DNA of 64,000 nt from Thiomicrorhabdus sediminis. Its GTDB lineage: Bacteria > Pseudomonadota > Gammaproteobacteria > Thiomicrospirales > Thiomicrospiraceae. The position numbers were made by a program, and so were the translations under genes. Numbering within the stretch: the first letter of the stretch is position 1; every line of letters starts with the position of its first letter. Positions 7,188-58,979 of this stretch are shown here, piece by piece. Under the pieces are notes generated by a model. It did not search any database. It worked only from the letters and a program-made list of their open reading frames with translations, and was not told the DNA's origin. The stretch spans positions 1,007,630-1,071,629 of the forward strand of contig NZ_CP040602.1 in assembly GCF_005885815.1 (NCBI RefSeq). The letters run 5' to 3'.

Positions 7188-7544
7188 TGGTGGAGCTGGG
7201 AGGAGTCGAACCCCCGTCCGCGGAGCCTCCATCTAAAAATCTACATGTTTATTTGGTCTATTAATTTAACCTGAATGCTGCCCGACCAGCAGGGATCACA
7301 TTAGGCGAGTTTGTAAAGTTTAATGCCAACTACCCAAACACGCAGCGGACACGGTTCTGTGAGATATGATACAGCGTTAGGGGCCACAGACAGCTTTCCT
7401 AGGCTGCACCAGCGGGATTAAGCCGCTAGAGCGTAGTTATCGTCGTTTGCAACTATAACAAAATGAAATAAAGATTTACGTGCATCATTCAGGCACGACA
7501 TGCATTTTAAACTTTGTACTCCCCGTCGAAACCAGTGCAGCCCC
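7188..7544 (-). ncRNA. ssrA: tmRNA (ssrA)
   Basis: Transfer-messenger RNA that rescues stalled ribosomes with SmpB. On the minus strand the 5' end (7544) reads GGGGCTGCACTGGTTTCGAC and the 3' end (7188) reads GGTTCGACTCC...AGCTCCACCA. The two ends pair as an acceptor stem. The tag reading frame runs from GCA at 7450 to TAA ending at 7418 and encodes ANDDNYALAA, one residue different from the E. coli tag (ANDENYALAA). The mature length is about 357 nt, normal for a one-piece tmRNA. The smpB gene lies just upstream on the same strand. Confidence 0.97.
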
Positions 7545-16841: not shown

Positions 16842-18755
16842 ATGGCTAAGATTATTGGTATTGACTTAGGAACAACAAACTCTTGTGTTTCGGTCATGGA
16901 AGGTAAAGAAGTAAAAGTTATTCCTAACGCGGAAGGTGCGCGTACCACGCCATCTATCGTTGCTTACACAGATGACGAAATCCTGGTTGGTGATTCAGCC
17001 AAGCGTCAGGCGGTAACTAACCCTGAAAACACGTTATTCGCAATCAAGCGTTTGATCGGTCGTCGTGCAGATGACGCGGTTGTACAAAAAGATAAAGACA
17101 TGGTGCCTTATGCGATCGTGGCTGCCGATAACGGTGACGCTTGGGTATCGGTTAAAGACAAAAAATTGTCTCCACAGGAAGTTTCTGCGCGTACTTTGAT
17201 GAAAATGAAGAAGACTGCAGAAGATTACCTGGGGCACGAAGTCACAGAAGCGGTTATCACCGTTCCTGCATACTTCAACGATGCGCAGCGTCAGGCGACT
17301 AAAGATGCCGGTAAAATCGCTGGTCTAGAAGTTAAGCGTATTATCAACGAGCCGACAGCGGCGGCGTTGGCTTACGGTATGGATAAAGTGACTTCTGACA
17401 GCAAGATCGCGGTTTACGATTTAGGTGGTGGTACTTTCGATATCTCTATTATCGAAGTAGCTGACCTAGACGGTGAAAAGCAGATCGAAGTATTGTCGAC
17501 TAACGGTGATACTTTCCTAGGTGGTGAAGATTTCGATAACGTAATCGTTGAATACATCGCCGAAGAGTTCAAAAAAGATCAGAACGTTGATCTAAAGCTA
17601 GACAAACTGGCACTACAGCGTGTGCGTGAAGCGGCTGAGAAGGCGAAGATTGAATTGTCATCTCGTGAGCAGACAGATATTAATCTGCCTTACGTCACAG
17701 CGGATGCAACAGGTCCTAAGCACTTGAACATGAAGATCACTCGTGCCAAGTTTGAATCTTTGATTGACGATCTAGTTACGCGTTCAATCGAACCTTGTAA
17801 GGTGGCGTTGAAAGATGCGGGGCTGTCTGCATCTGAAATCGATGACGTTATCTTAGTTGGTGGTTCGACTCGTGTACCTATGGTTCAAGCGGCGGTTAAA
17901 GAGTTCTTCGGTAAAGAGCCACGTAAAGACGTTAACCCTGATGAAGCGGTAGCGATGGGTGCTGCGATTCAAGGTGGTGTATTGTCTGGTGATGTCAACG
18001 ACGTTCTTCTGCTTGACGTAACACCTTTGTCTCTAGGTATCGAGACAATGGGTGGTGTGATGACTAAGTTGATTGAGAAAAACACAACGATCCCGACTCG
18101 TAAGTCTCAGGTGTTCTCAACGGCTGAAGACAACCAGTCTGCGGTAACGATTCACGTTCTTCAAGGTGAGCGTGAAGTGGCAAGCGGCAACAAGTCTCTA
18201 GGTCAATTCAACCTGGATGAAATCGCCGCGGCACCACGTGGTACTCCGCAGATCGAAGTAACTTTCGATATCGATGCTAACGGTATCCTGAATGTTTCTG
18301 CGAAAGATAAGAACACTGGTAAAGAGCAGCACATCACTATCCAGGCATCTTCTGGTCTATCTGAAGAAGAAATCGAAGCAATGGTTAAGGATGCCGAAGC
18401 GAACGCTGAAGCCGATGCTAAGCTGAAAGAACTTGTTGAAGCGCGTAACCAGGCTGATGGTATGGTTCACGCAACCAACAAAATGATCAAAGATGCGGGT
18501 GACTCGGTGACAGCTGAAGAAAAAGCACCGGTTGAAGAAGCGATCAAAGCGGTTGAAGAGGCAATCAAAGGCGACGACAAAGCGGCAATCGACGAGTCTG
18601 TTCAGAAGTTGATGGAAGCGAGCCAAGGTATTGCTCAAAAAGCGCAAGCTCAGCAGCAGGCTGGTGGAGAAGCGCAACAGCAAAGTTCAGCAAAAGACGA
18701 TGACGATGACATCGTTGATGCGGAGTTTGAAGAAGTTAACGACGACAAGAAGTAA
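16842..18755 (+). CDS. dnaK: Chaperone DnaK (Hsp70)
   Basis: A 637-residue ATP-dependent chaperone. The ATPase domain starts [15 protein letters not shown] and contains [13 protein letters not shown] and [12 protein letters not shown]. The substrate-binding domain follows ([14 protein letters not shown]), then the helical lid and an acidic tail [19 protein letters not shown]. It works with DnaJ and GrpE, encoded on either side. The GC-rich wobble and uniform codon use fit high expression. Confidence 0.99.
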
Positions 18756-18922: not shown

Positions 18923-18957
18923 CGGGCGATTCCAAACAGGGTTGCCCGTTTTTCTTT
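18923..18957 (+). terminator. Intrinsic terminator after dnaK
   Basis: CGGGCGA / TTGCCCG stem (7 bp, one G-U pair) with a 12-nt loop, followed by TTTTTCTTT. It lies 167 bases past dnaK and 116 before dnaJ, so dnaJ would be reached by read-through or from its own promoter. Confidence 0.8.
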
Positions 18958-19072: not shown

Positions 19073-20239
19073 ATGAGTAAAGCTTGCTACTATGAAATTT
19101 TAGGCGTCGCCAAAACCGCCTCCGAGGGGGAAATCAAAAAAGCCTACCGTAAAATGGCCATGAAATATCACCCGGATCGTAACCCGGATGATGCTGAGGC
19201 GGAAAACAAATTCAAAGAAGCTTCGGAAGCTTATGAAATTCTTTCGGATTCACAAAAACGTTCGGTATACGATCAGTTTGGTCATGCAGGTCTAGACGGC
19301 CAATCCGGAGGTGGATTTGGCGGTGGCGGTTTCGGCGATGCCTTTGGTGATATCTTCGGCGATATCTTTGGCGGCGGTTTTGGTGGTCGTCGAGGTCCGC
19401 AACCGGGTGCCGATCTGCAATACGATCTGGAAATCTCGCTGGAAGATGCGGTTGCCGGTACTACGGTCGATATCCGTATTCCAACCAAGGATGTTTGTGA
19501 TGCCTGTGATGGAACAGGGGCAGAGTCTGGTAGTGATGTGGAAACCTGTCCAACTTGTCATGGTGCCGGTCAGGTTCGGATGCAACAAGGGTTCTTTGCG
19601 GTAAACCGTACTTGTCCAAGTTGTCACGGTAGCGGTAAGCTGATTAAGACACCTTGTAAGTCATGTCGTGGCGAAGGCTATACTCATAGCCATAAGACCT
19701 TGTCGGTTAAAATTCCCGCCGGTGTCGATACCGGTGATCGTATTCGTCTGCAAGGCGAGGGGGAAGCCGGTGAACCAGGTGCGCCACGTGGTGATTTGTA
19801 TGTCCGCATCCGCGTCAAGCAGCATTCCATTTTTGAGCGTGACGGTAATAACCTTTATTGTGAACTGCCAATCAGTTTTGCCAAGGCCGCTTTGGGTGGT
19901 TCGGTAGATGTGCCGACCTTGGGCGGTAAAGCCAGCTTGAAGATTCCGGCCGGTACTCAGTCCGGTCAGCGCTTTAAAATGAGCGGAAAAGGGGTCAAGT
20001 CGGTTCGTTCATCAATGGTTGGTGATATGATTGTTCTGGTTCATATCGAAACACCGGTTAAACTCACCGCTCGTCAAAAAGAGTTGTTGGAAGAGTTTGA
20101 ACAAAGCCTGCAGGGCAAGCACTATAAACAGCACAGCCCGAAATCGCACAGTTTTTTTGATTCGGTAAAAGCTTTTTTTACCGGTGATGATGACGATACG
20201 AAAAAAGACAAAAATAACAAGGATGAGCCTTGGAATTAA
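19073..20239 (+). CDS. dnaJ: Chaperone DnaJ (Hsp40)
   Basis: 388 residues. The J domain carries the HPD motif (KYHPDRNP) that stimulates DnaK. A Gly/Phe-rich linker follows, then four zinc-binding repeats ([32 protein letters not shown]) and the two beta-sandwich substrate domains. It is slightly longer than E. coli DnaJ because of a charged C-terminal tail ([21 protein letters not shown]). The gene follows dnaK by 317 bases containing a nested hairpin and a terminator. Confidence 0.98.
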
Positions 20240-51268: not shown

Positions 51269-52684
51269 ATGAAAAAAGCGGTGTTAATTACAAGCTTGTT
51301 GCTAAGTGCTTGGCTGTTGTATCCGCTCAATGCCTATGCGGCTCAGCCTAATAAGTATGGCTTGCCCGATTTCAGCGCGCTGGTGGAACAGACCAATCCG
51401 ATTGTCGTCAATATCAGTACTACCAAAAACATTGATGCACAACAGCAGATTCCGCCGCAGTTCAGAGGCATGCCGGAAGAGATGTTGCGTTACTTCTTCG
51501 GCATTCCGCAACCTCGGAGTGGTGAAGGCGAAACTAAGCAACAGCACTCGCTTGGCTCGGGGTTCATTATCAGTGAGGACGGGTATATTTTGACTAATAA
51601 CCACGTGGTTGAAGGCGCTGATGAAGTGATTGTGCGTTTACGCAATCGCAAAGAAATGGTCGCCCAAGTGGTTGGTTCGGACAAAAGAACCGATGTCGCT
51701 CTATTGAAGATTGACGGTGAAGATTTACCCTATGCCAAAATCGGCAGTTCCGCTGATTTAAAGGTCGGGCAGTGGGTATTGGCAATCGGGGAACCTTTCG
51801 GACTCGATTTTACCGCGACCCACGGCATTATCTCCGCACTGGGGCGTGCTTTGCCGGATGATACCTATGTCCCGTTTATCCAATCGGATGTGCCGATCAA
51901 TCCGGGGAATTCGGGGGGGCCTTTGTTTAACCTAGATGGTGAAGTGGTTGGTATCAACTCGCAGATTTACAGCAAAAGCGGTGGCTCAATGGGCTTGTCG
52001 TTCTCGATTCCAATCGATATCGCCATGACCGTTGCCAACCAGATCAAGGCCGACGGTAAGGTGACCCGTGGTTATCTAGGGGTACAGATTCAAGAGGTGA
52101 CTAGCGATTTGGCGCAGTCGTTTGGTTTGGATAAGCCTTATGGTGCGTTGGTGGGGGAAACCTATCCCGATACGGCTGCACAGGAGGCGGGCATTGAAGC
52201 CGGTGATATTATTCTTGAATTCAATGGTCAAAAAGTCGAGAAGTCGACCGACTTACCGCCAATGGTAGGGGTTGCGCCAATTGATAAGCCCATCGCGTTG
52301 AAGATTCTTCGTCAAGGCAAAACCAAGCGTATCAAGGTGCGTTTGAAGTCACTGGATGAAGCCAATCAAGTAGCCAGCTCAGGTGGTTCGGATAGTGGCT
52401 CGGCTGGCAACCGTTTAGGTGCTTATGTGCAGACCTTGGACAAGGAGGCTCTGCAAGCGCTTGATCTACCATTTGGTGTGGCGATTACCAAAGTGTTTGG
52501 CGGACCGGCTAAAAAGGCCGGTTTGAGACAGGGGGATGTCATCGTCAGTATCGATTTCAAACCGGTGAAGGATGTCGCCAGTTTGAAAAAGCTATTGAAG
52601 AAGTTACCCGAAGGGCGTTCGTTACCGCTGCGAATTATTCGTAATAAACGTTCCATGTTTATACCGATTACTTTGGAAGATTAA
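51269..52684 (+). CDS. degP: Periplasmic DegP/MucD-type serine protease
   Basis: A 471-residue HtrA protease. A signal peptide (LLLSAWLLYPLNAYAA) precedes the trypsin-like domain with the triad in NNHVVEG (His), KRTDVALL (Asp) and GNSGGPLF (Ser), followed by two PDZ domains (about 270-365 and 390-470). It cleaves misfolded envelope proteins. It follows rseC, matching the mucABCD / rse layout in which degP (mucD) is the last gene. The name degQ or mucD would be equally acceptable. Confidence 0.96.
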   Translation: MKKAVLITSLLLSAWLLYPLNAYAAQPNKYGLPDFSALVEQTNPIVVNISTTKNIDAQQQIPPQFRGMPEEMLRYFFGIPQPRSGEGETKQQHSLGSGFIISEDGYILTNNHVVEGADEVIVRLRNRKEMVAQVVGSDKRTDVALLKIDGEDLPYAKIGSSADLKVGQWVLAIGEPFGLDFTATHGIISALGRALPDDTYVPFIQSDVPINPGNSGGPLFNLDGEVVGINSQIYSKSGGSMGLSFSIPIDIAMTVANQIKADGKVTRGYLGVQIQEVTSDLAQSFGLDKPYGALVGETYPDTAAQEAGIEAGDIILEFNGQKVEKSTDLPPMVGVAPIDKPIALKILRQGKTKRIKVRLKSLDEANQVASSGGSDSGSAGNRLGAYVQTLDKEALQALDLPFGVAITKVFGGPAKKAGLRQGDVIVSIDFKPVKDVASLKKLLKKLPEGRSLPLRIIRNKRSMFIPITLED

Positions 52685-52786
52685 ATTGTTCGCTGAATGG
52701 GGCGGATTCAATGCTTTTAAAATCACTAATTTGCAATGCGAAATCTGACAAATTAGCGTAGAATAAGCGCCATTCATTGATAACCA

Positions 52787-52872
52787 ATACAACTTGCTAT
52801 GCAGGTGAGCGAAAACGCCGCAAAGAAAGTCAAAAACAAGTTGTATAAAAAGGGGCAGTGGCCCCTTTTTTT
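52787..52872 (+). ncRNA. Candidate small structured RNA or attenuator in the lepA leader
   Basis: A perfect 10-bp inverted repeat ATACAACTTG (52787-52796) / CAAGTTGTAT (52837-52846) closes a 40-nt internal segment with a GGTG...CGCC stem. Directly after it comes an intrinsic terminator: AAAAGGGGC-AGTG-GCCCCTTTTTTT (52847-52872). A -10-like TAGAAT lies at 52759-52764, without a good -35. The compact layout suggests a short terminated transcript upstream of lepA. It matches no riboswitch or sRNA class that I can name. Confidence 0.6.
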
Positions 52873-52961
52873 ATGGTGGTTTTTTGACTACTTTTTTGCA
52901 GCAGATTGCCGGAAAAAAGCAAGCCAAATACCACCAAACTGCTAACGGATTTGGAGCTGAA

Positions 52962-54767
52962 ATGTCAGACAGTTTAAAAAATATTCGAAATTTTTCGATT
53001 ATTGCCCACATCGACCATGGTAAATCGACTATTGCCGACCGCTTTATTCAACACTGCGGTGGTTTGACCGACCGAGAAATGGCCGCACAGGTTTTGGATT
53101 CAATGGATCTGGAACGTGAGCGTGGTATTACCATCAAGGCGCAAAGTGTGACTTTGAACTATAAGGCTGACGACGGTGAAACCTACCAGCTGAACTTTAT
53201 CGATACTCCGGGACATGTTGACTTCTCCTATGAAGTCTCTCGTTCTTTGGCGGCTTGTGAAGGGGCGCTATTAGTAGTCGATGCGTCTCAGGGGGTTGAG
53301 GCGCAAACGGTTGCTAACTGTTATACCGCGATCGAGCAGGGGCTCGAAGTCTTGGCTGTCTTGAACAAGATCGACCTGCCGGCGGCGGATCCGGAGCGCG
53401 TTATCGAAGAAGTCGAAGATATTATCGGTATCGAAGCCACCGATGCGGTGCGCGCTTCGGCCAAATCGGGTATCGGTATCAAAGAGACCTTGGAAGATAT
53501 CGTGAATAAGATTCCACCACCAGAAGGTGATCCGGATGCGCCGTTAAAAGCCCTGATTATCGACTCATGGTTCGATAATTACCTGGGTGTTGTCTCGTTG
53601 GTACGAGTGATAGACGGTAAAATCGGCAAAAAGACCAAAATGAAAGTGATGTCGACCAAGGAAGAATATTTGGTTGACGATGTAGGGATCTTCTCGCCAA
53701 AGCGTACCTCCAAGCCGTTTTTGCAAGCCGGTGAAGTCGGGTATGTTATTTCCGGTATCAAAGATATTGACGGTGCGCCGGTTGGTGATACCTTGGCCGA
53801 TGCAACCAAACCTGAAATCGAGGCTTTGCCAGGATTCAAGCCGGCACAACCGCGCGTATTTGCCGGGTTATTCCCAATCTCCTCGGAAGACTATGAAGAT
53901 CTGCGTGAGTCATTACGTAAACTGCGTCTGAACGATGCGGCGCTGCATTTTGAGCCGGAAACTTCGGAAGCCTTAGGTTTCGGTTTCCGTTGTGGTTTCC
54001 TGGGTATGTTGCATATGGAAATCATTCAGGAGCGTCTTGAGCGTGAATACAATCTGGACTTGATCACCACTGCACCGACCGTTGTCTATGAGGTGGAAAC
54101 CAAGGCCGGTGATGTGATTAAGATCGACAACCCTTCGGAATTGCCCGATCCGGCGACCATTGCAGAGGTGCGTGAGCCGATTATTCAGGCCAATATCCTA
54201 GTGCCGAACGAGTATGTCGGTGCGGTAATGAAGCTGTGTATTGAAAAGCGCGGTGTGCAAAAAGATATGCAGTATTCCGGTGGTCAGGTTTCAATCAACT
54301 ATGAAATGCCGCTTAACGAAGTGGTATTGGACTTCTTCGACCGTCTGAAATCTTGCAGTCGTGGTTATGCATCGATGGATTATGAGTTCAAACGTTTCCA
54401 GGCTGATGATTTGATTCGCGTCGACTTCTTGGTCAACGGTGAAAAAGTCGATGCATTGGCGTTGATTGTGCACAGAAGTTTTGCGGTACAGCGTGCTAAG
54501 GTGATTATCGAAAAATTGCGAGAAGTCATTCCTCGCCAAATGTTTGATGTTGCCATTCAGGCCGCTATCGGTGGTAAGATTATCGGACGTTCGAATGTCA
54601 AAGCCTTGCGTAAGAACGTAACAGCCAAATGTTACGGTGGTGACGTTTCTCGTAAGAAGAAACTGTTGCAGAAACAGAAAGAAGGTAAAAAGCGTATGAA
54701 GTCGATTGGTAGCGTTGAACTGCCGCAAGAGGCTTTCTTGGCAATTCTAGATACAGGAGAGTCCTAA
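52962..54767 (+). CDS. lepA: Elongation factor 4 (LepA)
   Basis: 601 residues from ATG 52962 (GGAG 6-8 nt upstream). A ribosomal GTPase that promotes back-translocation or initiation fidelity. The G domain has [30 protein letters not shown] and NKIDLP. Domain II and the LepA-specific C-terminus ([33 protein letters not shown]) follow. A frame from 52884 would add 26 residues overlapping the leader hairpin and is not family-like. The lepB gene starts 3 bases after the stop. Confidence 0.98.
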
Positions 54768-54770
54768 TCC

Positions 54771-55541
54771 ATGAGTTTTGAATTAATCTTGGTAATGGTC
54801 ACCGCTATTACCGGTGTGATTTATTTTGTTGACCGCATTGTTTGGCGCCCAAAACGTGAAGCCGCGATGATGCCGGATAAAGAACCGATCATTATCGAAT
54901 ATGCGCGCTCGTTGTTTCCGGTTTTTCTGGTGGTTTTGATTCTACGTTCGTTTATTATCGAACCCTTTAGAATCCCATCGGGATCGATGTATCCGACTTT
55001 GGAAATCGGTGATTTCATCGCCGTAAACAAGTTCTCATACGGGGTCAAGCTGCCGGTAACACAAACCAAGATTCTGCCGATCTCGTTACCGCAACGCGGT
55101 GATGTCGTTGTATTCAAATATCCTGATGATCCGGATGTCGATTATATTAAACGTGTTGTCGGTTTACCGGGGGACCGTATCACCTATATCGGCCGTACCC
55201 TGTTTATCAACGACAAGCCTGTTAGCCAGACTTATCTGGGTAAATATAAGGGCGTTGAGTCCGGTGCCATTATGAATGGTGCTTCGGTGGTAGAAGAGAC
55301 TTTCCCGGATGGTCAGGCTCATCAGGTTTTACTGGATATGGAAAAAGGTTCTAAAGACATGGATACGGTCGTGGTTCCGGATGGCCACTATTTTATGATG
55401 GGTGATAACCGAGACCACAGTAATGACAGCCGTTTTTGGGGCTTTGTGCCGGAGCGTAACCTGAAAGGTAAAGCATTCGGTATCTGGATGAACTGGGACA
55501 ATGGTTTACATTTTGATCGAATCGGAAAAGGGATCGATTAG
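54771..55541 (+). CDS. lepB: Signal peptidase I
   Basis: 256 residues (shorter than E. coli LepB, 324). Two N-terminal membrane segments: FELILVMVTAITGVIYFV and FPVFLVVLILRSFII. The catalytic Ser is in IPSGSMYPTLEIGD and the general base Lys is in DVDYIKRVVGLPGD, with the box E GDNRDHSNDSRFWG. It removes Sec signal peptides. It is coupled to lepA (3 bases) and rnc (2 bases). Confidence 0.98.
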   Translation: MSFELILVMVTAITGVIYFVDRIVWRPKREAAMMPDKEPIIIEYARSLFPVFLVVLILRSFIIEPFRIPSGSMYPTLEIGDFIAVNKFSYGVKLPVTQTKILPISLPQRGDVVVFKYPDDPDVDYIKRVVGLPGDRITYIGRTLFINDKPVSQTYLGKYKGVESGAIMNGASVVEETFPDGQAHQVLLDMEKGSKDMDTVVVPDGHYFMMGDNRDHSNDSRFWGFVPERNLKGKAFGIWMNWDNGLHFDRIGKGID

Positions 55542-55543
55542 TC

Positions 55544-56251
55544 ATGGCTAAGGCGACTAAATTGACACAGGAACGTATCGCAAAACTGCAACAGTTGGCT
55601 AACAAACTGGGTTATCAATATCAGGATATCGGTTTTCTGCAGCACGCTTTAACGCACCGCAGTATGGGGGCGAGAAACAATGAGCGTCTTGAATTCCTCG
55701 GCGATAGCCTGGTTAACTTCGTGATTGCCGATGTCCTGTTCCATCAGTTTGCCAAGTTGCCCGAAGGTGATATGAGCCGTGTTCGCGCCCATTTGGTCAA
55801 GGGTGATACGCTGGCGGTAATCGGCCGAGAATATGATTTAAGCGATTATTTGGTATTGGGGCCGGGCGAGCTGAAAAGCGGTGGTTACCGTCGTGATTCC
55901 ATTATTGCCGATGCGGTCGAAGCGATTATCGCCTCGGTTTATGAAGACGGTGGTCTGGAAGCTTGCCGTGCCATGGTTATGCGTTTTTACGATAAACGCT
56001 TGCAAGAGCTTGATCCGAAAAAAGTCGGTAAGGACCCTAAAACCCGTTTGCAGGAGTTCCTACAATCGCGCAATGAGGCTTTACCGGAATACTCCATTAT
56101 CAGTGTCAATGGTGCCGCACATGCGCAGGAGTTTACCGTGTCATGTTTTGTCGCCAAATTAAACAGTAAGTTTGAAGCGGTTGCTTCAAGCCGTCGTAAA
56201 GCCGAACAAAAAGCCGCCGAAATTGCCTTGGAAGCATTGGACCAGTTATAA
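55544..56251 (+). CDS. rnc: Ribonuclease III
   Basis: A 235-residue double-strand-specific RNase that processes rRNA and mRNA. The catalytic helix is NERLEFLGDSLVNFVIADVLF; a second acidic motif is DSIIADAVEAIIASVYEDGG. The C-terminal dsRNA-binding domain starts DPKTRLQEFLQSRN and ends RRKAEQKAAEIAL. Starts 3 bases after lepB, and era follows after 62 bases, in the standard lep-rnc-era operon. Confidence 0.98.
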   Translation: MAKATKLTQERIAKLQQLANKLGYQYQDIGFLQHALTHRSMGARNNERLEFLGDSLVNFVIADVLFHQFAKLPEGDMSRVRAHLVKGDTLAVIGREYDLSDYLVLGPGELKSGGYRRDSIIADAVEAIIASVYEDGGLEACRAMVMRFYDKRLQELDPKKVGKDPKTRLQEFLQSRNEALPEYSIISVNGAAHAQEFTVSCFVAKLNSKFEAVASSRRKAEQKAAEIALEALDQL

Positions 56252-56313: not shown

Positions 56314-57288
56314 ATGTCAGATAAAGAATTATCATTAGAAGAGATTCTAGCTGCCGGGCAAGACGAACAGTCTGCTGTCAGTAGCGATTACCAATCCGGT
56401 TTTGCGGCGGTTATCGGTCGCCCCAATGTCGGTAAATCCACCATTATGAATGAGATGCTTGGGCAGAAGCTGAGCATCACCTCGCCTAAACCGCAAACCA
56501 CTCGTCACCGTATTCACGGTATTCATACCACCGACAGTCATCAGATTATTTTTGTCGATACACCGGGTATGCACCTGGGAGGACAGAAATCCATCAACAC
56601 CTATATGAACCGTACTGCCAACAGCGCTTTTGCCGATGTCGATGTGGTGTTGTTTGTGGTGGAAGCCGGGCGTTGGACCAAAGAAGATCAGGCGGTTGCC
56701 AAAAAACTGCAGCACCTTGAGCTGCCGGTGATTGTTTTGGTCAATAAGGTGGATAAGTTCAAAGACAAGCAGGAGCTGTTTCCGTTTATTCAACAGCTTT
56801 CCGAAGAAGTTAAAATGGATGCGTTAATTCCGGTTTCCGCCTATAAGAAAATCGGCCTGAGCGATATTGAAGCCGAAGTACTGAAGTACCTGCCAAAGCA
56901 GCCGCCGATTTTCGCCGATGATTATATTACCGACCGTTCGACCCGTTTTCTGGCGGCGGAAATCATTCGTGAAAAATTGATGCGTACCTTGGGTGAAGAA
57001 GTGCCTTACGGCTCTACCGTTGAAATCGAACGCTTCGAGTTTGATGAAGAAGAAGGGCGTTGGTTGATCAACGCTTTGATTTTGGTTGAACGCGCTGGTC
57101 AAAAACAGATCGTCATCGGTAAAAAAGGCGAATTGATTAAAAAAATGGGGACGCAGGCACGTAAAGACCTGATCCATCTATTGGATGCCCGTGTTCACCT
57201 TGAACTTTGGGTTAAGGTCAAAGAAAACTGGTCGGATGATGCACGTGCTTTAGCCAGTCTGGGATATGACGACAACCATAGCCGTTAA
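56314..57288 (+). CDS. era: GTPase Era
   Basis: 324 residues. A ribosome-associated GTPase for 16S rRNA maturation. G1 is GRPNVGKSTIMNE; G3 is VDTPGMH, G4 is NKVDK. The C-terminal KH domain includes GQKQIVIGKKGELIKKMGTQARKDL. The N-terminus carries about 20 extra residues before the G domain (MSDKELSLEEILAAGQDEQSAVSSD), somewhat longer than E. coli Era (301). Followed by recO. Confidence 0.98.
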   Translation: MSDKELSLEEILAAGQDEQSAVSSDYQSGFAAVIGRPNVGKSTIMNEMLGQKLSITSPKPQTTRHRIHGIHTTDSHQIIFVDTPGMHLGGQKSINTYMNRTANSAFADVDVVLFVVEAGRWTKEDQAVAKKLQHLELPVIVLVNKVDKFKDKQELFPFIQQLSEEVKMDALIPVSAYKKIGLSDIEAEVLKYLPKQPPIFADDYITDRSTRFLAAEIIREKLMRTLGEEVPYGSTVEIERFEFDEEEGRWLINALILVERAGQKQIVIGKKGELIKKMGTQARKDLIHLLDARVHLELWVKVKENWSDDARALASLGYDDNHSR

Positions 57289-57371
57289 TTTTATGGCCAT
57301 GCTGGATTAGCGCCGGCAAACGCCAATGAAACGCTGTGTAAAGTCGAAAAGAGGTGACAGGTTTTTTAGCT

Positions 57372-58097
57372 ATGCAGATACAACAAAGCGCCTATGTATT
57401 GCATTCACGACCTTATAAGGAAACCAGTGCCTTGGTGACTTTTTTGACCGAGGACTACGGCAAAATCAATGCGGTGGTTCGCGGTGTTCGCGGCGGACGC
57501 AAGCCGAGCGCTCAGAAAATGGCGATGTTACAACCGTTTCAGCAAGTCGTGATTCAGTGGCGCGAGCGTAATCAAGCCAGTGACCTTTTCAGTATCCAAG
57601 AGTTGGAAATGGCGGCACTGCGTTTTCCCCTGCAGGGCGAAGCCAATATCTGCGGACTCTATCTGAATGAACTGTTATATCGTTTATTGTTTCCGCAAGT
57701 GGCTATTGAGGGACTGGTTGATGATTATCAGCAGGCGCTTTACCAATTGAGCCGTACACCGCAACGCGAACAGCAGGCCTGGGCGTTACGCCAGTTTGAA
57801 TATCAATTATTGCAGTATATGGGTGAAGGTTTGCAGTGTGAACTGGATTACTATCAACAGCCTATAGATGAAGATTCAGAATATTTTTATTATCCTCAAC
57901 AGGGTGCGATTTTGGCGTCGCAAGATAAATTAAGAAACGGCATAGCGCTGCAGGGCAAATGTTTATTGGCGCTGGCGCGAATGCATTATGAACCGGACTG
58001 TTTAAGCAGTCTGAAACGCCTTTTTCGTCAGGTTTTGGCGCTATATTTAGGCAATAAACCGATTATGGCCAGAGAGTTATTTGCAAAAGGTCGTTAA
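57372..58097 (+). CDS. recO: DNA repair protein RecO
   Basis: 241 residues from ATG 57372. It acts with RecR and RecF to load RecA on SSB-coated DNA. The N-terminal OB-fold (QQSAYVLHSRPYKETSALVTFLTEDYGKINAVVRG) and the C-terminal domain (NICGLYLNELLYRLL) fit the family. A GTG at 57354 would add six residues but overlaps its only possible Shine-Dalgarno. The cysteine zinc motif of some RecO proteins is not complete here. Confidence 0.93.
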   Translation: MQIQQSAYVLHSRPYKETSALVTFLTEDYGKINAVVRGVRGGRKPSAQKMAMLQPFQQVVIQWRERNQASDLFSIQELEMAALRFPLQGEANICGLYLNELLYRLLFPQVAIEGLVDDYQQALYQLSRTPQREQQAWALRQFEYQLLQYMGEGLQCELDYYQQPIDEDSEYFYYPQQGAILASQDKLRNGIALQGKCLLALARMHYEPDCLSSLKRLFRQVLALYLGNKPIMARELFAKGR

Positions 58098-58175: not shown

Positions 58176-58979
58176 ATGAATCCGATTTTTTTAGGTTTGA
58201 ATATTGATCACGTCGCCACTTTACGTCAGGCTCGCGGAACACGTTATCCGGATCCGATCAAAGCGGCGTTGGATGCTGAAATGGCCGGAGCCGACAGCAT
58301 TACCTTGCACTTGCGAGAAGATCGTCGTCATATTCAGGATGAAGATGTGCTGCGTATCGCACAGGTTCGTCAAACCAAAGTGAATCTGGAAATGGCCGCC
58401 ACTGAAGAGATGGTGCAGATTGCTTGTGCGGTTCAGCCGGAAGATATCTGCCTGGTGCCGGAAAAACGAGAAGAGCTGACCACCGAAGGCGGTTTGGATG
58501 TACTAGGACAAAAAGAGTGGTTGACCAAGGTTTGTGCACGATTGGCAGAAGCTGGATGTCGAGTCTCTTTGTTTATTGATCCGGATGAAGCGCAGATTGA
58601 AGCGGCCAAAGAAGTTGGGGCGCCTGTGATTGAGTTGCATACCGGTACCTATGCCGAATTGGAAAAGCCAGCTGAAGTGGCCGCCGAGCTTGAACGCATT
58701 CGTCATGCGGCCGAATATGCTCATCGTTTGGGACTTGTGGTCAATGCCGGTCACGGTCTGCATTATCACAATGTACAGCCGATTGCCGCGATTAAGGTAA
58801 TCGAAGAGCTCAATATCGGTCATGCCATTATCGCGCAAGCCATCTATTCCGGACTGCCGGAAGCGGTCAAAGAGATGAAACGTCTAATGGTTGAAGCGCG
58901 TCAGCAGGCCTATCTGCAAGATTGCTGTTCGACGCAATCTGAGGATTGTTGTTCAACAGATAAATCATCTTGTTGCTGA
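58176..58979 (+). CDS. pdxJ: Pyridoxine 5'-phosphate synthase with a cysteine-rich tail
   Basis: A 267-residue enzyme for the last step of de novo vitamin B6 synthesis (TIM barrel). Motifs are [40 protein letters not shown] and [11 protein letters not shown]. The usual length is about 240-250. The extra C-terminus has three CC pairs, [20 protein letters not shown], not part of the barrel. Such clustered cysteines could bind metal or act as a redox patch. The acpS gene starts 10 bases after the stop. Confidence 0.96.

Follow-up and report, generated by a model that had tools for sequence, protein, structure and literature searches.

The lepA gene of Thiomicrorhabdus sediminis is preceded by a promoter-like core and a predicted intrinsic terminator, and comparison of related genomes shows these sequence elements, and the order in which they occur, to be conserved. 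We consider it probable (about 0.65) that the element is a premature terminator in the 5'-UTR of the lepA-lepB-rnc-era operon, an attenuator in the broad sense, that yields a terminated RNA of ~100 nt.

According to this model, RNA polymerase would start at ~52771 (a predicted start site) from the conserved TTAGCGTARAATA promoter and the nascent RNA would comprise a short unpaired start, a hairpin (P1) and then a GGGGC/GCCCC-U7 terminator. Part of the transcripts would be expected to stop at the terminator as the ~100-nt RNA, with the remainder continuing beyond it into lepA and the ribosome-assembly genes that follow. The extent of termination would be under regulation, for which the probable agent is a protein that acts on RNA polymerase during elongation, either a termination factor or a product of the operon itself, and P1 would probably serve as a structural spacer, or as a contact for a protein or RNase III, rather than as an aptamer. 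If correct, the operon encoding LepA, signal peptidase, RNase III and Era is controlled by early termination in the family around Thiomicrorhabdus, and the control of lepA would run parallel to that of the rimP-nusA-infB operon. The leader would also represent a type of element overlooked by sequence-based RNA-family searches, which miss it because it is mainly layout and pairing that are conserved.

Organisation of the lepA leader

The window analysed here is a stretch of 64,000 nt from a genome comprising a single 2.37-Mb contig; coordinates below are those of the window and features lie on the + strand unless stated otherwise. The intergenic region of interest (52685-52961) separates a gene for a degP/htrA-type protease, which ends at 52684, from lepA (52962-54767, ATG at 52962; NCBIfam TIGR01393), which encodes elongation factor 4, a 30S assembly factor, and is the first gene past the terminator. 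A likely lepA ribosome-binding site, GGAG, can be seen by eye at 52953-52956. The original prediction had the order lepA-lepB-rnc-era downstream of the element and this is borne out by NCBIfam matches to lepB (54771-55541), rnc (55544-56251) and era (56314-57288). Beyond era lie an ORF at the place of recO (57354-58097), without an NCBIfam match, and pdxJ (58176-58979; NCBIfam). On the basis of spacing, we infer that lepA through pdxJ (up to 58979) are co-transcribed. Elsewhere in the window, a terminator at 18923-18948 lies 168 nt past the stop of a 637-aa ORF (16842-18755) and ahead of a 388-aa ORF (19073-20239); the sizes of these two ORFs would suit dnaK and dnaJ.

The conserved promoter core, TTAGCGTAGAATA, occupies positions 52753-52765; its -10 hexamer, TAGAAT, lies at 52759-52764, and a GC-rich discriminator comes next. 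Direct reading of this hexamer agrees with the earlier placing of a -10-like box 22 nt ahead of the first repeat arm. The -35-like hexamer TGCGAA (52737-52742), 16 nt ahead of the -10, is weak and does not conform to the sigma-70 consensus; a sigma-70 scan made no call there, and of the 26 same-genus rows extending this far, 20 have TGCG at this position. The predicted 5' end of the RNA and its unpaired start span 52771-52786, with the start site placed by its spacing from the -10.

Hairpin P1 (52787-52846) consists of the arms ATACAACTTG (52787-52796) and CAAGTTGTAT (52837-52846) plus an inner stem. The arms are the perfect 10-bp repeat that was originally said to adjoin an intrinsic terminator, and it does so exactly, the A-run of the terminator beginning at the next base (52847). 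The terminator itself (52847-52872) is made up of this A-run, GGGGC (52852-52856), an AGTG loop, GCCCC (52861-52865) and seven T residues (52866-52872), and ends 89 nt ahead of the lepA ATG. A simple consensus scan listed neither the leader promoter nor the leader terminator, because the -35 is poor and because A-U pairs of the stem consume most of the T-run; hairpin/U-run scans recover the terminator. The motif AGGGGC-N3-7-GCCCCTTTTT is found at one place in the T. sediminis genome, the leader terminator. Folding of a 100-nt stretch predicts two adjacent hairpins with an energy of -32.3 kcal/mol, compared to -18.4 (sd 3.0) for shuffled sequences (z -4.6), and none of 200 dinucleotide shuffles folds as well. 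A possible third hairpin, GGTGGT...ACCACC (52875-52935), lies in the gap between the terminator and lepA; it is weak and not universal, the terminator-lepA stretch folding at p<0.05 in 10 of the 27 leaders tested.

That the element belongs to no nameable RNA class, as first suggested, agrees with an Rfam search of the window, in which only tmRNA reaches its gathering score (the tmRNA gene, with the tag ANDDNYALAA, lies at 7188-7544 on the - strand). At E-values up to 10, the 24 matches within 52600-53000 are all below their gathering scores, and a scan of 20 related lepA loci (19 of them outside genus g1 or not of the window's clade) gave no Rfam match above gathering. The riboswitch-like internal loop of the original prediction, AGCGAAAACGCCGCAAAG, is present in the window but has no counterpart in relatives, as judged by eye, and the stretch from -10 to terminator varies between 28 and 180 nt; with neither loop nor leader length conserved, we reject a riboswitch. 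A leader peptide is likewise rejected: inspection of near relatives by eye revealed no equivalent of the window's 46-codon frame, which begins at 52799.

Conservation of the layout among relatives

Searches with LepA covered 62 genomes of the family, with genera labelled g1-g28, and gave 57 readable lepA leaders; the start of lepA was unreadable in five genomes (G005, G022, G029, G074, G079). The order promoter, leader, terminator, lepA is found in 48 of the 57 (28 from g1, one from g3, eight from g5 and 11 from g6), with the terminators located by a hairpin/U-run scan that imposes no sequence requirement. One further g1 leader, L027, is counted among the 57 but outside the 48: its contig ends 147 nt upstream, so that the terminator is seen and the promoter is not. 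The promoter pattern was drawn up after viewing the rows and was widened by hand for two g6, two g28 and two class-level leaders. As this pattern fixes the GTA and AAT positions of the core, their conservation carries no weight; the second T and the C are present in 48/48 leaders and the third base is A in 44/48.

The terminator is conserved in its pairing. Since MAFFT aligned P1, and the terminators of g6, poorly, pairs were counted per stem position from individual folds. Pairs 1-3 at the base of the terminator stem (GGG...CCC) are G-C in all 48 leaders, whilst at pairs 4-6 both sides change and pairing is kept; the terminators were cut out for these counts by a G...C pattern, and a pattern-free scan gives the same stems.

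The sequence of P1 is almost wholly different between species, with folding retained in many relatives. In an alignment-free comparison, leader bodies beat their shuffles at p<0.05 in 21/31 cases (mean z -2.5), compared to 1/31 for an upstream control stretch (mean z 0.0; the control for L035 was mis-cut). Under a second definition of the body the count is 25/47 (g1 15/28, g3 1/1, g5 7/8, g6 2/10), L104 being too short for the test. Native P1 arms pair better than cross-species chimeras, again at p<0.05, in 9/21 g1 leaders (mean z -1.9) and in 0/17 leaders from other genera (mean z -0.8). In all of these counts related species are entered singly and are hence not independent. As a check on covariation, then, alignment-free folding supports P1 in most genera but not in all. 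P1 is a frequent, not a universal, component of the leader, and comparison of the predicted folds shows folding to be kept in most of the genus and in g5.

A stem that is kept without its sequence would suit RNase III, and rnc is a member of the operon. By analogy with E. coli, where according to a review (PMC10582724) the rnc-era 5'-UTR contains a long stem-loop that RNase III cleaves, P1 might be cut by the operon's own rnc product in an autoregulatory loop. P1 is short, however, having a small inner stem in addition to its 10 bp, and is undetectable in some relatives, and cleavage would leave the terminator unexplained; we consider this account highly improbable.

Not all members of the family have the full layout. 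Four leaders (three from g28, one from g4) have a -10 box before lepA without a terminator: two of these, L038 and L100, retain the core CGTAAAATA immediately ahead of lepA and the other two have a looser box. A further four leaders, from g2, lack the leader promoter, with a terminator between the genes found in two by scan and in two by eye. Outside the family, box and terminator occur together in one of 17 leaders (drawn from 16 other families of the class and E. coli), and a hairpin without a recognised promoter in two more (L059, L066); the hairpin/U-run scan found no terminator in the E. coli lepA leader. In the single case with both, L058 (genome G038, from another family of the class), the box is TAAAAT, the hairpin, CGGCCGGAAC, is strong and the T-run lies 23 nt ahead of lepA; the layout is alike, the sequence is unrelated and the origin is perhaps independent.

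These distributions bear on the possibility that the element is an independent small-RNA gene, with its own promoter, 5' seed, hairpin and terminator, whose product would act in trans by base pairing, lepA being reached by leakage. The architecture fits an sRNA of ~100 nt, and the 5' stretch (52771-52786) is alike within the clade whilst P1 varies. There is also a precedent in E. coli, where GraL, made from the greA leader, acts both in cis and in trans (PMC6829880). Between genera, however, neither the body nor the 5' stretch is conserved, and no such small RNA would be made in the four relatives that have a -10 box and no terminator. All instances, moreover, lie at lepA with no second copy, the search elsewhere having covered the T. 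sediminis genome. Allowing one mismatch, the promoter core matches 10 places in that genome and its reversed control 20, which gives no sign of extra copies; allowing three mismatches, the 5' stretch matches 68 places and the control 30. We regard a separate small-RNA gene as unlikely. The original prediction left the choice between a small RNA and an attenuator open: the attenuator is now the better supported, by the order seen in 48/57 leaders and by the short gaps to lepA in 10/48 described below, and an independent small-RNA gene is the less likely of the two. As the ~100-nt terminated RNA is the expected product of the attenuator, both descriptions may hold.

Distances to the flanking genes and possible control of read-through

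The distance from the T-run to the first aligned lepA codon is 15-30 nt in 10 of the 48 leaders and 15-105 nt in 46 of the 48, the start codon being up to 12 nt nearer in L037, L036 and L050. A gap of 15-30 nt is too small to hold a further promoter and a ribosome-binding site, and in those leaders lepA can therefore be reached only by read-through. We infer that lepA transcripts also pass the terminator in the window, where a scan flagged no sigma-70-like site on the + strand of the 89-nt gap. L022 and L025 have gaps of ~300 nt, probably due to an insertion, and intact leaders.

Distances on the other side speak to a simpler account, that the terminator is the ordinary one of the upstream protease gene, lying by chance past the lepA promoter and without regulatory consequence. 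It is consistent with this that in 45/48 leaders no other hairpin/U-run was flagged in the interval from the upstream stop to the promoter, and that the g2 relatives have an intergenic terminator without the leader promoter. The leader terminator, however, lies far from the upstream stop, at a median of 148 nt (65-286 nt; measured in 45 of the 48), whereas 10 of 17 other terminators in the window lie 13-62 nt from theirs; the remaining seven are 168-3682 nt from a stop, mostly through opposite-strand reading of a palindromic hairpin, and the comparison set (the leader terminator and the 17 others) was hand-picked as 18 of the 34 hairpins in the window. The terminator also stands behind the promoter in 48/48 leaders, including three that have an additional hairpin/U-run located after the upstream stop but ahead of the promoter (strong in L037, weak in L036 and L050) and still keep the leader terminator; upstream hairpins were flagged in eight of the 48, and the five that fall inside the upstream reading frame were set aside. 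Such an order would cost lepA expression for no gain, and we think it decidedly unlikely that the terminator merely serves the protease gene. The leader is assigned to lepA because of the short gaps in 10/48 leaders, because a similar box (the exact core in two of four leaders) is found right before lepA where the terminator is absent and because of the long distance from the upstream stop.

How read-through might be controlled is constrained by what the folds reveal. A classical attenuator with mutually exclusive folds was rejected, there being no antiterminator signal: pairing of the leader with an arm of the terminator beats shuffles (p<0.05) in only 2/48 leaders (Fisher 0.94). Pairing of the leader with the terminator-lepA gap gave the same count (2/48; Fisher 0.06). 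As we found neither an antiterminator fold nor any conserved loop or leader peptide, premature termination ahead of lepA would, if it is controlled at all, most likely be set by a factor that acts on RNA polymerase during elongation.

Comparison with other leaders

The literature matches listed in our searches included no paper on the lepA leader, and within those matches promoter-proximal termination, known at other genes, looks new for lepA, although an earlier listing in the supplement of PMC2965389 is possible. The available part of that paper (Naville and Gautheret 2010) describes rimP-leader, a predicted attenuator family with a promoter-proximal terminator (GGGc...gCCC) 4-130 nt from rimP and no antiterminator, for which the authors suggested NusA; they could not find the motif at other terminators. 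In E. coli, two terminators are located upstream of rimP (PMC6511841, in the portion available), and the corresponding portion of PMC8060035 makes no mention of ylxS or of a leader. The lepA leader resembles rimP-leader in that a promoter-proximal terminator, with a G-rich 5' arm and a C-rich 3' arm, precedes the genes of a 30S-maturation operon, in having no visible antiterminator, and in its distance from the gene (15-105 nt in 46/48, compared to 4-130 nt). Unlike rimP-leader, it is found before lepA, and whilst the GGG/CCC base is present in 48/48 stems, the full GGGC...GCCC is present in only 24/48, all of them from g1. As it is located before another gene, we have not filed it as rimP-leader.

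A similar layout precedes rimP in the same genomes: it is present in all 50 leaders examined, out of 59 matching genomes (loci L116-L145 and L146-L165 are among them), with TTGACA/TATAAT-like promoters identified by eye only. Their terminator is strongly conserved in 50/50 genomes, as judged by a pattern written after viewing the sequences: it has the inverse stem, CCCCG...CGGGG, mostly CCCCGTTTTTACGGGG with six T residues. Ahead of it lies a fast-evolving hairpin, the stretch being significantly folded in 39 of the 44 leaders in which folding was measured. For locus L130 the rimP distance is 67. Among the 20 rimP loci scanned there was no Rfam match above gathering. This layout resembles that of the lepA leader and is thus common to two ribosome-assembly operons of the family. 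It could be imagined that the lepA-lepB-rnc-era and rimP-nusA-infB leaders form a single regulon in the family, in which promoter-proximal terminators, each with a fast-evolving hairpin ahead of it, would respond to one termination factor or one signal from 30S assembly, and ribosome assembly would be tuned through premature termination; this is speculative, and we rate it improbable.

GraL, in the greA leader of E. coli, is the best-studied system that we found to work in the manner predicted for lepA, to judge from the available text of PMC6829880. There, an intrinsic terminator in the 5'-UTR is read through by approximately one third of transcripts, giving short RNAs of 37-59 nt, with ~19 nt before the terminator. 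The lepA leader is alike in carrying its terminator inside the 5'-UTR of a housekeeping gene and in its predicted output of a short terminated RNA and a read-through mRNA. The lepA RNA would be longer (~100 nt), and for GraL regulation by GreA has been measured. None of the Nus factors tested mattered at the greA leader (same excerpt), which makes the argument by analogy for NusA at lepA a weak one. The E. coli rnc-era leader is similar to that of lepA in placing a hairpin ahead of an operon that contains rnc and era, and differs in being a site of RNase III cleavage, where the lepA leader has a terminator (PMC10582724).

Two further genes were examined as controls in genomes of the family. 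Upstream of greA, a gene-end terminator lies 14-21 nt past the upstream stop in 9/14 valid loci (L180 and L192, which were mis-cut, were excluded), and these terminators are of the ordinary gene-end type. Upstream of recA, a terminator-like hairpin was flagged in 8/16 genomes of the genus, and five of these hairpins are strong and lie no more than 140 nt from recA. The layout is thus not special to ribosome-assembly genes, and any claim of specificity is weakened. The five strong recA leaders (L205, L206, L216, L217 and L218) have a hairpin and U-run with a TATAAT-like box upstream, seen by eye, and possibly represent a recA attenuator. In genome G015, inspection by eye revealed similar stretches ending GCAAAGGTCTC or ACAAAGGTCTC in several intergenic regions, before lepA (L022), greA (L185) and recA (L214); these repeated stretches are perhaps a MITE.
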